This document shows, in pieces, positions 7,494 to 22,018 of a stretch of DNA of 64,000 nt. Where the stretch lies: the NCBI GenBank assembly GCA_028293285.1, contig JAQGPC010000279.1, forward strand, positions 1 through 64,000, written 5' to 3'. Source of the DNA: Pedosphaera sp. Its GTDB lineage: Bacteria > Verrucomicrobiota > Verrucomicrobiia > Limisphaerales > Pedosphaeraceae. The notes beneath the pieces were generated by a model. That model ran no database searches. It saw nothing but the letters and a program-made list of their open reading frames with translations, and had not been told where the DNA came from. Positions within the stretch are counted from its first letter, which is position 1. Every line of letters begins with the position of its first letter. A program made the position numbers and the translations under genes.

Positions 7494-8885
7494 ATGAATA
7501 ACGACGAAGGCAGCACGGGCCAAAATGGCCAGAACGATTGGAACCGGCGGGAATTTATCAAGGGCGCATCTTCTTTCGGCGCATTGATGGTGCTTATGGG
7601 CGGAGTACCGCTCCAAGCCGAGGACAAAACCAATGCGGCACCAGCAACAGCTTACAGCACGGTTGGCGCGCCATTAAATTGCGCGTTAATCGGTTGCGGG
7701 ATTTGGGGTCGCGAAGTGTTGCAGACACTGGCTTTGTTGCCGAATGCGCCGGTCGTGGCGGTATGCGATACGTACGAGCCATTCTTGCGTCGCGCGAAGG
7801 AAGCCGCGCCCAAGGCACAGACCTACACCGATTATAAAAAGCTGCTGGAACAAAAGGATGTGCAGGGCGTGATTGTCGCAACGCCATCCTACCTGCACCG
7901 CGAAATCGTGGAAGCGGCCTTGAAGGCGGGGAAGCATGTTTATTGCGAAGCGCCGCTGGCAACGACAGTGGAAGATGCACAGGCGATTGCCAAAGCTGCG
8001 AAAGCAGCGGTGAAATTGAATTTTCAATCAGGTTTGCAAATGCGGTCAGATCCGCAACGTCATTTCCTGTTGCAGTTCGTTCGTAGCGGCGCGATGGGCC
8101 GGACAATCATGGCGCGTTCCCAATGGCACAAGAAGGAAAGCTGGCGGCGGACGTCGCCGAATGCGCAGCGGGAAACGGAAATCAATTGGCGTTTGCGCAA
8201 AGACCAGTCCATTGGCTTGGTGGGCGAGATTGGGATTCATCAATTGGATTTGATCAGTTGGTTCATCGGCGGACAACCGACGGCGGTGGGTGGCTTCGGC
8301 GGCATCTTGCAGTGGAATGATGGACGCGACGTGGCCGATACCATTCAGACAGTTTTCGAATTTCCAAGCGGAGTGAATCTTTCGTACGATTGCACATTGG
8401 CGAATTCGTTCGACGCAGATTACGACATGATTTACGGGACCGACGCAGCGGTAATGATGCGCGGGAACAAGGCGTGGATGTTCAAGGAAGCGGACTCCCC
8501 GTTGCTTGGCTGGGAAGTGTACGCGCGCAAGGACCAATTTTACCAGGAGACGGGCATCGCGCTGGTGGCTAATGCGACCAAGCTGGTGGCGCTGCAAAAC
8601 AAGGCGACGGAGGTGGTGCCGTTTTCTGAAACCGCACTGCATTACGCGCTCGAAGCCTTCGTCAAGAACAGCAACGTGGTGACGACCGGTGTGGAGGATT
8701 TTGTTTCGAACTACGGTGATAGCACCGATGGGTTGCGGGAACATCTGGCGGGCCTTTCCAAGAGCCGGTTGCCCGCAGCGGGGTATCGCGAAGGCTTTGC
8801 CGCAACGGTCAGCGTCATCAAGGCGAACGAAGCCATCAGCAAAGGCCAGAAGGTTTCCATGCAAAAGGAATGGTTTGAGATTTAG
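7494..8885 (+). CDS. Tat-exported Gfo/Idh/MocA family oxidoreductase, CEAP variant
   Basis: A twin-arginine motif (NRREFIKG, residues 17-24) followed by a hydrophobic stretch marks Tat export, expected for an enzyme that folds with NAD(P) before export. The Rossmann motif GCGIWG lies at 67-72. The usual EKP motif is replaced by CEAPLA (151-156), so the Lys normally involved in nucleotide binding and catalysis is absent. GEIGIHQLDLISWFI carries the conserved His/Asp region of the C-terminal domain. Family members oxidise or reduce sugars and glycosides. Position between the ThuA-DUF1080 protein and YceI suggests periplasmic sugar-derivative metabolism; the substrate is unknown. A 45-base gap separates it from yceI. 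Confidence 0.87.
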   Translation: MNNDEGSTGQNGQNDWNRREFIKGASSFGALMVLMGGVPLQAEDKTNAAPATAYSTVGAPLNCALIGCGIWGREVLQTLALLPNAPVVAVCDTYEPFLRRAKEAAPKAQTYTDYKKLLEQKDVQGVIVATPSYLHREIVEAALKAGKHVYCEAPLATTVEDAQAIAKAAKAAVKLNFQSGLQMRSDPQRHFLLQFVRSGAMGRTIMARSQWHKKESWRRTSPNAQRETEINWRLRKDQSIGLVGEIGIHQLDLISWFIGGQPTAVGGFGGILQWNDGRDVADTIQTVFEFPSGVNLSYDCTLANSFDADYDMIYGTDAAVMMRGNKAWMFKEADSPLLGWEVYARKDQFYQETGIALVANATKLVALQNKATEVVPFSETALHYALEAFVKNSNVVTTGVEDFVSNYGDSTDGLREHLAGLSKSRLPAAGYREGFAATVSVIKANEAISKGQKVSMQKEWFEI

Positions 8886-16472: not shown

Positions 16473-16685
16473 TTAGTCCGATCTTTTCGAAATAAGTCGT
16501 CGAAGGACATGGCCTTGCCACATCCAAAGTCCCGAAAGGACAATTACAGGAAGGAAGATAAACCGAACAGCGGGGGCGTAGTTTGGAATTTCTTCAAACG
16601 GACTATAAATATAACCGAGTATCGGAATGCCAAAGACGATGTGAATCCAGCGAAGTATCGAACGTTTGGTGGCGTCACTAATCAT
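16473..16685 (-). CDS. Small two-helix membrane protein (70 aa)
   Basis: The protein has a short basic start (MISDATKRSILRW), a first hydrophobic segment (IHIVFGIPILGYIYSP), a loop with EEIPNYAP, and a second segment (VRFIFLPVIVLSGLWMW) before a basic tail (RRLISKRSD). This resembles small membrane proteins often found in Bacteroidota and in ArsR/SRPBCC neighbourhoods, but I know no function. Its ATG overlaps the end of the YdeI-family gene by 8 bases, so translation is probably coupled. Confidence 0.75.
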   Translation of the reverse strand: MISDATKRSILRWIHIVFGIPILGYIYSPFEEIPNYAPAVRFIFLPVIVLSGLWMWQGHVLRRLISKRSD

Positions 16686-17265
16686 TTAATCCCTTTCCAT
16701 TGAGAATTTGCGGCATACTTTTTTCAACCCTTGACTCCCGAGTTTTGGATTGCTTGGGTGCAGAAAAATAAAGGATGTATCCTCTTTGCCGTCCCGGCGT
16801 CAGTGCATCAAAAGCAGTTTTCAAGGCAGGGATTTCATCCAGTTTATTTTGAAGTTCTTCGGGAATAGGTTCCGGATTCGTTTTAAAATTTACTTTCAAA
16901 CCGGCTTTTTCCGCTGCAATGGCTTCATGAATATAGGCTTTCAAGACGGGTTCCATCTCAACTATTTCTCGAACCTTGGTGAACCGAATCTGGCGAGCTG
17001 CCTGCACATTCTTCGTTTGTTGGATTAGAATTCCTTTGGGATCCTTTAACAAGGCGCCTTTGCAAAACATAAGCGCACTGTATTCTTTGAATCCTTGTAT
17101 TATAAGTATATTGCTGTTCTGAAACGTGTAACAAGGTTTACCCCACTTCAATTCTTCGGTGAGCGGACAGTCAAGAATGATCCTTCTCAATTTCTTGAAT
17201 TCTGCCTGCCACTTTTTGGCTTTGCTTAAATATACATCAACAGGATTCATTCTATTCTTTGTCAT
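16678..17265 (-). CDS. YdeI/OmpD-associated family protein
   Basis: The 195-residue product has an N-terminal DUF1801-like domain (WQAEFKKLRRIILDCPLTEE, then LKWGKPCYTFQNSNILIIQG and CKGALLKDPKG) and a C-terminal OmdA-like part (IPEELQNKLDEIPALKTAFDALTPGRQRGY) ending in a basic tail with SRVEKSMPQILNGKG. That domain order is diagnostic of the YdeI/OmpD-associated family, which is linked to stress responses but has no proven reaction. The start may instead be the ATG at 17250 (MNPVDVYLSKAKKW). It sits 6 bases after the SRPBCC gene and overlaps the next gene, within a tight operon. Confidence 0.9.
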   Translation of the reverse strand: MTKNRMNPVDVYLSKAKKWQAEFKKLRRIILDCPLTEELKWGKPCYTFQNSNILIIQGFKEYSALMFCKGALLKDPKGILIQQTKNVQAARQIRFTKVREIVEMEPVLKAYIHEAIAAEKAGLKVNFKTNPEPIPEELQNKLDEIPALKTAFDALTPGRQRGYILYFSAPKQSKTRESRVEKSMPQILNGKGLND

Positions 17266-17271
17266 GAGGTG

Positions 17272-17736
17272 TTATTTTAATTTGCTTGCGATGTCTTGCA
17301 ATCGGTTGTGTGCCATATTTATGCCTGGAGCAAAACCTATTTGCAGCATTTGGTCTCTGAGCGCGACTGATCTATATACTATATGCATATTGAGTTTGCT
17401 GGTGTCGTCAGTGAGTTTCTCAAATTCTAAGGACTCAAGCTGGACGCCAAAAGGTGTATTCTCCATTTCAAATGTCCGGATGATTTTCCGGTTCGGGCTA
17501 AACTCATGGATCACCCCGTTGAATCCGTGTTTGTTTCCCCGAGGATCGGTTGTTTCAAATTGGTAACTGCCGTGCTTTTTACTTTCGAGTTTCAGCACTT
17601 TCGTTCCCATCCATTGCTCGACAATGTCGGGCTCTACATATGCTTTAAAAAGTAATTCCAATGGCAGATCAAATTCCCTTGTAATCACTAATTCCTGTTT
17701 GCCGTCTTCGGTATTGATTTTTGTTTTTTGTTCCAT
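17272..17736 (-). CDS. SRPBCC (AHSA1-type) domain protein
   Basis: The 154-residue protein follows the AHSA1/START-like pattern: ELVITREFDLPLELLFKAYV, then VEQWMGTKVLKLESKKHGSY, GVIHEFSPNRKIIRTFEMEN, and a C-terminal amphipathic helix (GINMAHNRLQDIASKL). The fold is a helix-grip cavity that binds hydrophobic ligands. In many bacteria an ArsR-type regulator gene directly precedes such a gene, as here, with one base between stop and start. The ligand is unknown; the ArsR protein may respond to the same compound. Confidence 0.9.
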   Translation of the reverse strand: MEQKTKINTEDGKQELVITREFDLPLELLFKAYVEPDIVEQWMGTKVLKLESKKHGSYQFETTDPRGNKHGFNGVIHEFSPNRKIIRTFEMENTPFGVQLESLEFEKLTDDTSKLNMHIVYRSVALRDQMLQIGFAPGINMAHNRLQDIASKLK

Positions 17737-17737
17737 G

Positions 17738-18058
17738 TTATTTGCTTTTATATTTTTTCATTACTGTTTCTAACTTGTTGAATCGGTCTTCCCACATTTT
17801 GCGGAATGGCTCAATGAAGTCGGCTACCTCTTTCATTTTTTTTGCATTAATATGATAGTAAATTTCCCTGCCGTTTTGCTCCTGTTTAAGCAATTCGCAC
17901 TCAGTGAGTATTTGCAAGTGTTTTGAAACTGTCGGTCTGGCAGTGTCAAAGTTTGCAGCTATGGCCCCGGCCGTCATGGATTGCGAAGCAACCAGCAGAA
18001 GTATGGCCCTTCTTGTCGGGTCTGCCATGGCTTGAAATACGTCTCGTCTTAAATTCAT
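17738..18058 (-). CDS. ArsR-family HTH repressor
   Basis: The 106-residue winged-helix protein begins [20 protein letters not shown], the standard start of this subfamily. The recognition helix region reads [20 protein letters not shown], and the wing [19 protein letters not shown]. No Cys pair of the metal-sensing kind is present, so it is unlikely to sense arsenic; it fits the SRPBCC-linked subfamily, whose ligands are mostly unknown. It is the first gene of the cassette, and its promoter carries two matching palindromes, suggesting autorepression. Confidence 0.92.
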
Positions 18059-20384: not shown

Positions 20385-21851
20385 ATGAATGTGGTTTCTG
20401 TTCATCGTCCTAACATGAGTCCAGACACATTTGGAGAACTTGTTAGAAAGGGGGAAGAAAAGCTGCGCGTTGATGAAATTAAAATTGAAACTGGTAGTGA
20501 GCAGTTTTTTGGCCATGGACTGTTGCTTCTAAAAAACAATGAATTTGAGTTGCAGCTGAATCTCGGCATGACCGCAAGCGCTGGTTTAAAGCGAATCGGT
20601 GTTTTCCATCAGAGCGACACTTGGGTAATGACGGGCAAAATTAATAATTGTTTAGAATTCAAATGCCCTGGCCTCTTTCCAGCAGCCGAGGAACACATTT
20701 TCAACGAAACAAAAACCTTTCATTTTCATCCTGACTGCATAGAACTTATTCCGACTGGTTTTGATGCCCTTTCACGCATAGAAAAAGAAGCAGCGTTCAA
20801 AGCGATAAATCCAGATCACAAAGCGCCTAATCGAGGTTGCGAAGTTGAGTTCCATGCCTATTGCGCAGATTACAAACTTCTTTTCTGTAATGGTGGGACC
20901 GAAAGCGTATCTACAAACGACTTCTTTGGTCATTCTTCACAGTCAACGCTGAACACTTTCATGGATTCGACAGACAATTATGATTTCGGACTTATAAATG
21001 AAGGATCCGATTTACACATTTGCCTACGGTCTAAATCAACCTGGAATTCCGGAAATGTTGAAAAAGATTGGAATCTTTTCGAAGGCTTGCAGCATTCTAT
21101 TGGGTTTGTGCATGGAAAGAACGCTTGGCCATATAGAATAATTTATTGGTCGAATGGTAAGAAAATGACTGACCGCTTTTTTCCTCCCAACAGAATAAAG
21201 AAGACCATCCACGCTCCATTTTCTTCCATGCCGATGCTGCCTAAGGAGACAACGGGAACCGTTGGTGCTTCAATCAAACTTGCCGCTAAATTCTTCGAGC
21301 AAAATACCGATCTGTCCGAAAAGATTTCTTATTTGTTATTCATGGCGCGAGAAGCAGGAGCGTCTGCTGTGCATTTTGATATTCGAAGCCTTGCTTTATG
21401 TTCTGTATTTGAAAAACTGCTTGACCTTATTTTCGAGTATCTCTCGCCCCAAATAACCGCAACTCAGCACGAACAACAGCTATTTCAACAAGCCAAGAAT
21501 GAGGTTAGCACAGAAGTGAAGAAGAAAAGCGTGAGACAAGGTGATCCGTATGACCGTATTTGTAGAATTCTTTCAAGTATGAAGGCTGTTCAATCCGGAG
21601 ATAAGTACACTGCAATAATTAACCATTTTGGTTTGAAAGAAATGTCCATGCATTTTGAAGCATGGAAGAAAGAACGACCGCAACTCGCGCACGGTAAATT
21701 TCCAAATGGCCAGCAGGAATCAAGGCAAACAGAATACATTTTAAACCAATCCCGTATCGCGGGAGGTATTAACATCCTTTTTCTTAAATTGATTGGATAC
21801 TCGGGTCCTGTAGTTGCATCGCGATTTGAAGATATTCATCGCGTTATCTAA
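20385..21851 (+). CDS. HEPN-motif protein, ApeA-like (candidate anti-phage factor)
   Basis: This 488-residue protein stands alone and is AT-richer than its surroundings. There is no signal peptide. The N-terminal half is a beta-rich region (GHGLLLLKNNEFELQLNLGM, then EVEFHAYCADYKLLFCNGG and GFVHGKNAWPYRIIYWSNGK). The C-terminal half is helical and contains RPQLAH at about residues 431-436, which is an R-X4-H motif of HEPN RNases. A long N-terminal beta domain plus a C-terminal HEPN domain and a size near 490 residues fit ApeA-type abortive-infection proteins. The family assignment is inference from this layout; no close sequence match could be tested. It may be recently acquired. Confidence 0.6.
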   Translation: MNVVSVHRPNMSPDTFGELVRKGEEKLRVDEIKIETGSEQFFGHGLLLLKNNEFELQLNLGMTASAGLKRIGVFHQSDTWVMTGKINNCLEFKCPGLFPAAEEHIFNETKTFHFHPDCIELIPTGFDALSRIEKEAAFKAINPDHKAPNRGCEVEFHAYCADYKLLFCNGGTESVSTNDFFGHSSQSTLNTFMDSTDNYDFGLINEGSDLHICLRSKSTWNSGNVEKDWNLFEGLQHSIGFVHGKNAWPYRIIYWSNGKKMTDRFFPPNRIKKTIHAPFSSMPMLPKETTGTVGASIKLAAKFFEQNTDLSEKISYLLFMAREAGASAVHFDIRSLALCSVFEKLLDLIFEYLSPQITATQHEQQLFQQAKNEVSTEVKKKSVRQGDPYDRICRILSSMKAVQSGDKYTAIINHFGLKEMSMHFEAWKKERPQLAHGKFPNGQQESRQTEYILNQSRIAGGINILFLKLIGYSGPVVASRFEDIHRVI

Positions 21852-21945: not shown

Positions 21946-22018
21946 ACATGCCGCTCCGATGGAGCTTGGTCATTTACAAGGTGGAGATTCTATAAACATG
22001 GCGCTCCTCTGGAGCTTG
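21946..22018. repeat. Two-copy hairpin repeat (GCTCC-NNN-GGAGC)
   Basis: ACATGCCGCTCCGATGGAGC (21946-21965) and ACATGGCGCTCCTCTGGAGC (21996-22015) are near-identical, 50 bp apart, and both continue TTG. Each folds into a 5-bp hairpin. Between them is GTGGAGATTCTATAAACATG. This resembles dispersed intergenic repeats of Verrucomicrobiota and Planctomycetota genomes. No coding potential. Confidence 0.5.

Follow-up and report, generated by a model that had tools for sequence, protein, structure and literature searches.

HEPN toxins embedded in restriction-modification (R-M) operons are an established theme (PMC3710099). The anticodon nucleases PrrC and RloC are R-M-embedded HEPN ribonucleases that provide a second line of defence, PrrC together with the type Ic system PrrI, and their N-terminus is an ABC ATPase. 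ApeA has a beta-rich N-terminal domain of approximately 300 residues and is R-M-embedded in epsilonproteobacteria (PMC3710099). In HEPN domains, the arginine of the R-x4-H motif ends a helix, the histidine lies in the loop ahead of the last long helix, a polar residue typically follows the arginine, and helix 2 carries a conserved acidic residue; non-catalytic HEPN proteins usually do not have the motif (PMC3710099). Here we describe a gene of Pedosphaera sp. whose product is likely a HEPN endoribonuclease that acts in phage defence and belongs to a new, unannotated family. We favour this reading because the arginine, the histidine and the helix-2 acid are conserved among the relatives of the protein and because these relatives lie within R-M operons and defence islands. 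The likeness to PrrC and RloC comes from five of the relatives and not from the copy studied here, and the N-terminal part of the new family, unlike theirs, is beta-rich and non-ATPase; Pfam scans found no ATPase domain in any family member. HEPN_RiboL-PSP and the MAE_28990/MAE_18760-like HEPN proteins share the R-x4-H motif and a weak likeness in sequence or fold to the C-terminal part, but the family has no match to them above curated cut-offs and they have no demonstrated equivalent of its N-terminal region.

The window, by which we mean the whole stretch of 64,000 nucleotides that was analysed, contains the gene as an intact open reading frame (ORF) of 488 amino acids on the plus strand (20385-21851), with the sequence RPQLAH at residues 431-436, just as the initial annotation had described it. 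The gene is real and comprises 478 to 488 codons. Its true start is probably the second ATG, at 20415, which gives 478 amino acids, because the starts of homologues align there: the protein read from this ATG, MSPDTFGELVRKG, can be aligned with MTADEFVKIVRKG, at which the closest relative begins, and MTADEFVKIVRKGSDKLRVDEI, the start of the closest relatives, has its counterpart in MSPDTFGELVRKGEEKLRVDEI of the window. No clear Shine-Dalgarno site precedes either ATG (20385 or 20415). Over the likely coding region (20415-21851, plus strand), homologues cover both the start and the full length, with an E-value of 7e-14 to the relative in genome G135 in the protein search.

We found that the G+C content of the gene is 0.414 (41.4%), compared to an ORF mean of 0.514 (51.4%, SD 0.039) and 51% for the window, and only two of the 46 ORFs of at least 150 amino acids have a lower value. 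The AT-rich composition noted at first therefore holds, but the genes at 16678-18058 are just as rich in AT (G+C 0.41-0.42), so that the contrast is real and not unique. The upstream neighbour, a prepilin-like gene, and the downstream neighbour, a GNAT gene, both lie on the minus strand, and for this reason the gene has no operon partner, as had been proposed. Between the gene and the GNAT gene are two palindromic repeats of the ACATGCCGCTCCGATGGAGCTTG type (21946-22018) that are possibly REP-like.

Searches with the window protein returned nothing from Pfam, NCBIfam or the PDB, and from PHROGs only a family of unknown function at 0.29; a PADLOC HamB match at 0.037 was set aside as chance level. 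The R-x4-H pattern itself was not informative. The window protein contains three such matches, and at least one also occurs in approximately 55% of shuffled copies, so the pattern alone is no evidence. Since no library recognises the window protein, the evidence has to come from its relatives, and we stress that conservation in distant relatives, and not R-x4-H itself, carries the claim made here.

No relatives turned up when 97 close genomes were searched with the protein; a 388-genome sample of the phylum yielded two. Profile searches at the level of the phylum and of three orders added more, for a total of about 12 loci plus fragments, thinly scattered across the three orders (6 of 320, 5 of 289 and 4 of 273 genomes). 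These approximately 12 diverged relatives, from across Verrucomicrobiota, are 14-44% identical to the window protein; the closest full-length relative, in G631, is 37% identical, and a phylogenetic tree groups the window copy with the copies of G631 and G700 (support 99/98). A contig scan with the window protein alone was empty, and with the alignment it gave two relatives only, both already known, and named them as Coraliomargarita sp. SDUM461004 and Puniceicoccaceae bacterium NP23. Plasmids, phages and IMG/VR contigs, searched with the window protein and its relatives, contained no relatives. Weak genome matches with E-values of 1e-4 and above and internal stops were rejected as chance. The family is small and fast-changing, and no database searched recognises the window protein.

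Within an 11-row family alignment, whose rows are 14-37% identical to the window protein, R431 and H436 are the only two invariant columns, and both residues are kept in all 12 homologues that cover the site when fragments are counted; the annotated pair had been singled out at first from the window protein, and its conservation is now established. The other two R-x4-H matches, at R70 and R480, are not conserved among homologues and were rejected. Counted from the likely start, the putative catalytic motif is R421...H426 (RPQLAH, 21675-21692, plus strand). The residue after the arginine (432 in the longer numbering) is a polar one (N, D or H) in most relatives, which read R-N/D/H-x-L-A-H-G; in the window protein it is proline, a point against the HEPN reading. 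Position 333 (E343 in the longer numbering; 21411-21413, plus strand) is acidic in all 11 rows, with ten E and one D, lies within the predicted helix 321-348, and matches the helix-2 acid of HEPN domains described in PMC3710099. The family signatures are LCSxLEG and GFxxGxxxWP; the latter is found in the N-terminal region of the window protein as GFVHGKNAWP (21102-21131, plus strand), where G234 is conserved and W238 mostly so.

AlphaFold2 modelling, for which only three sequences served as input (the window protein, L046 and L047), agreed with the proposed division into a beta-rich N-terminal half and a helical C-terminal half, the former at low confidence. In the full-length model the pLDDT is mostly below 50 in the N-terminal half and 70-85 in the core helices of the C-terminal half. 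R421 ends helix 408-425, H426 lies in the next loop, and helix 438-459 follows. This predicted placement agrees with that of the HEPN motif, where helix 3 of the helical bundle ends and the loop to helix 4 begins. The C-terminal part (residues 281-478; 21255-21848, plus strand) folded alone gave the same arrangement, with a pLDDT of 74.6 and a pTM of 0.70; a variable insert separates helices 2 and 3. The N-terminal region (residues 1-280; 20415-21254, plus strand) matches no known family in Pfam or structure in the PDB and is a probable sensor or regulatory domain.

The full-length model was too poor for a fold search. Foldseek found no significant match in the PDB, and the C-terminal model compared with the PDB and viral structures gave nothing at E<=0.001. 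The best viral model, an unnamed protein (probability 0.99, E 0.07, TM 0.51), and the third-placed one, a phage HEPN protein, are likewise not significant. The predicted C-terminal fold is compatible with the HEPN bundle expected around R431 and H436, although no database structure confirms it. Furthermore, no single family sequence reaches a curated HEPN cut-off. Among 24,736 Pfam models scanned against the family members, however, HEPN families alone recur or cover the motif: two members weakly match HEPN_RiboL-PSP over the motif (best 0.02), and the C-terminus of one relative weakly matches HEPN_Apea over the motif (0.08) and HEPN_RiboL-PSP better (0.02). Such hits would be unlikely to converge on one superfamily by chance. 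One member also touches the PADLOC CARF-HEPN model at 0.031. A helical domain that is not HEPN, with a conserved R-x4-H serving something else, would account for the missing structural match and for the missing family match at curated cut-offs; it is highly improbable given the position of R and H, the helix-2 acid, the polar residue that follows R in the majority of relatives and Pfam hits that recur for HEPN families only. We therefore retain the C-terminal HEPN-type RNase domain of the initial annotation as a prediction that now draws on the invariant R-x4-H, the conserved helix-2 acid and their placement relative to the helices.

The more specific identity proposed at first, an ApeA-like protein, was not supported. 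The new family resembles ApeA in being a single protein of similar size, in its predicted layout of a beta-rich N-terminal part of approximately 300 residues (modelled here at low confidence) ahead of a C-terminal HEPN-like domain with R-x4-H and, in some bacteria, in an R-M-embedded position. The conserved motifs differ, with a helix-2 E..H in the ApeA-type set as opposed to LCSxLEG and GFxxGxxxWP here. Neither HEPN_Apea nor ApeA_NTD1 of Pfam matches the window protein, and none of 14 family members matches the PADLOC Cas13-ApeA models, which the positive control matched at 3.5e-18. This control is a HEPN_Apea gene of the same genome (L021; L044:4874-6136, contig C264 of G000) that exceeds the Pfam cut-off (53 bits) and also matches PADLOC PDC-S58. 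ApeA membership was rejected on the failure of these tests despite the control.

We also weighed whether the window protein might be a true but very divergent ApeA, whose C-terminal part is the ApeA HEPN domain and whose N-terminal part is a drifted ApeA-NTD1. Size and layout, the occurrence of ApeA in R-M operons and the relative that touches HEPN_Apea speak for it, as does an hhalign comparison of the family with six ApeA-type proteins that is collinear, places motif on motif and exceeds all 150 column shuffles (P 0.095 for the full length, 0.038 for the C-terminal and 0.05 for the N-terminal part). The hhalign probabilities are nevertheless about 1%, the relative in question scores better with HEPN_RiboL-PSP, the PADLOC result separates the family from the control, and the helix-2 E..H is absent from the family signatures. 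We consider this reading unlikely, while a remote common origin with ApeA is possible from the alignments.

The genomic company of the relatives bears on the proposed role in defence, which was predicted at first from the window copy. Type I R-M operons contain the gene in five relatives, four of which (G144, G334, G839 and G747) carry it between hsdS and hsdR of closely related operons. HsdM proteins of these operons are 74-86% identical to that of G839, while their HEPN proteins are strongly diverged, and the hsdS-hsdR position looks like an exchangeable cargo slot. The gene of G135 is downstream of another hsdM-hsdS pair, in company with PDC-S39, a HEC-02A ATPase, PDC-M23A with a HamB-like helicase, and AbiE-like genes. 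The gene of G631 directly follows a DNA methyltransferase gene, with overlapping ends, and after that of G348 comes a SIR2 gene next to a phage tail gene, with prophage genes adjoining. Two copies stand alone, that of G1042 and that of the window; the latter has no R-M neighbour, so the R-M link comes from relatives only. Islands with relatives hold the PADLOC candidates HEC-02, PDC-S32, PDC-S39, PDC-M23 and PDC-M68, which share defence islands with the HEPN family but are different proteins; the family itself has no PADLOC model. A HEPN-fold RNA binder or regulator that neither cuts RNA nor serves in defence, comparable to MtlR-like proteins, would suit a window copy that stands alone beside non-defence genes. 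It is quite improbable, since no residues other than R and H are invariant, whereas non-catalytic HEPN proteins usually lose R-x4-H (PMC3710099), and since the relatives sit in defence operons. A role in defence thus stands as a prediction, now drawn from relatives whose genes lie within type I R-M operons and defence islands.

None of the seven nearest genus and family relatives has the gene in its genome. In the five of them that we inspected at this place, the rluB-SH3-folD block is conserved, but the window's 14-24 kb stretch does not adjoin it, with the exception of distant prepilin matches; the gene therefore lies in a lineage-variable stretch. We found no transposon ends, flanking repeats or mobile-element boundary around it. 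The suggestion that the gene was newly acquired thus remains plausible with respect to its absence from the nearest relatives, but the whole neighbourhood is lineage-variable and offers no mobile-element boundary in support.

For the HEPN endoribonuclease that we favour, the helical domain at the C-terminus, which probably dimerises, would cut RNA without metal through R431 and H436. Its target would most likely be tRNA or another host RNA; for tRNA, PrrC (PMC3710099) and a retron HEPN (PMC13405049) are precedents. The beta-rich N-terminal part of roughly 280 residues would restrain the nuclease until infection is sensed. In R-M-embedded relatives the R-M complex might also hold it in check, so that the protein would act as a PrrC-like back-up that is triggered once restriction is blocked or overwhelmed, halting the infected cell. 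The window copy is alone, and its N-terminal part would therefore have to sense by itself. A fuller proposal, to which we give somewhat less than an even chance, is that of a new family of HEPN ribonucleases that have a beta-rich sensor of their own, travel as exchangeable hsdS-hsdR cargo and sometimes escape to become stand-alone abortive-infection genes, the window copy being one. Current defence finders miss the family, as no member convincingly matches a PADLOC or Pfam model. The family is one more HEPN clade linked to restriction-modification, and its intact stand-alone and R-M-embedded versions allow one to ask whether the restriction enzyme or the protein's own N-terminal domain controls the toxin.

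Several further features accompany the relatives. In two type I R-M operons a STAS/HATPase-type gene follows the HEPN gene (L071:7436-8721 and L042:9577-10545), and a small partner is present in G839 too, suggesting a conserved HEPN and ATPase cargo module. In G747 a 1193-residue PIN-domain protein (L072:3480-7061) occupies the same hsdS-hsdR slot as the HEPN relative. The HEPN relative of G797 lies upstream of an RtcB RNA ligase gene (L070:9895-11700). RtcB seals 2',3'-cyclic-phosphate ends, the type left by HEPN enzymes, and the two may form a damage and repair pair. Remnants comprise a frameshifted gene in G334, a 69-residue ORF within the island of G135 and a 63-residue remnant in G432; these broken copies indicate rapid turnover, as is typical of defence genes. 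A degraded second C-terminal copy of the family (L039:4405-4551) adjoins a HamB-like helicase gene in the same Coraliomargarita island. The G432 remnant (L043, about 8640-8816) has an IS3-like transposase gene nearby and shares its contig with nadD, and G1042, of the same genus, has its intact copy (L073:8519-9904) on a contig that also carries nadD.
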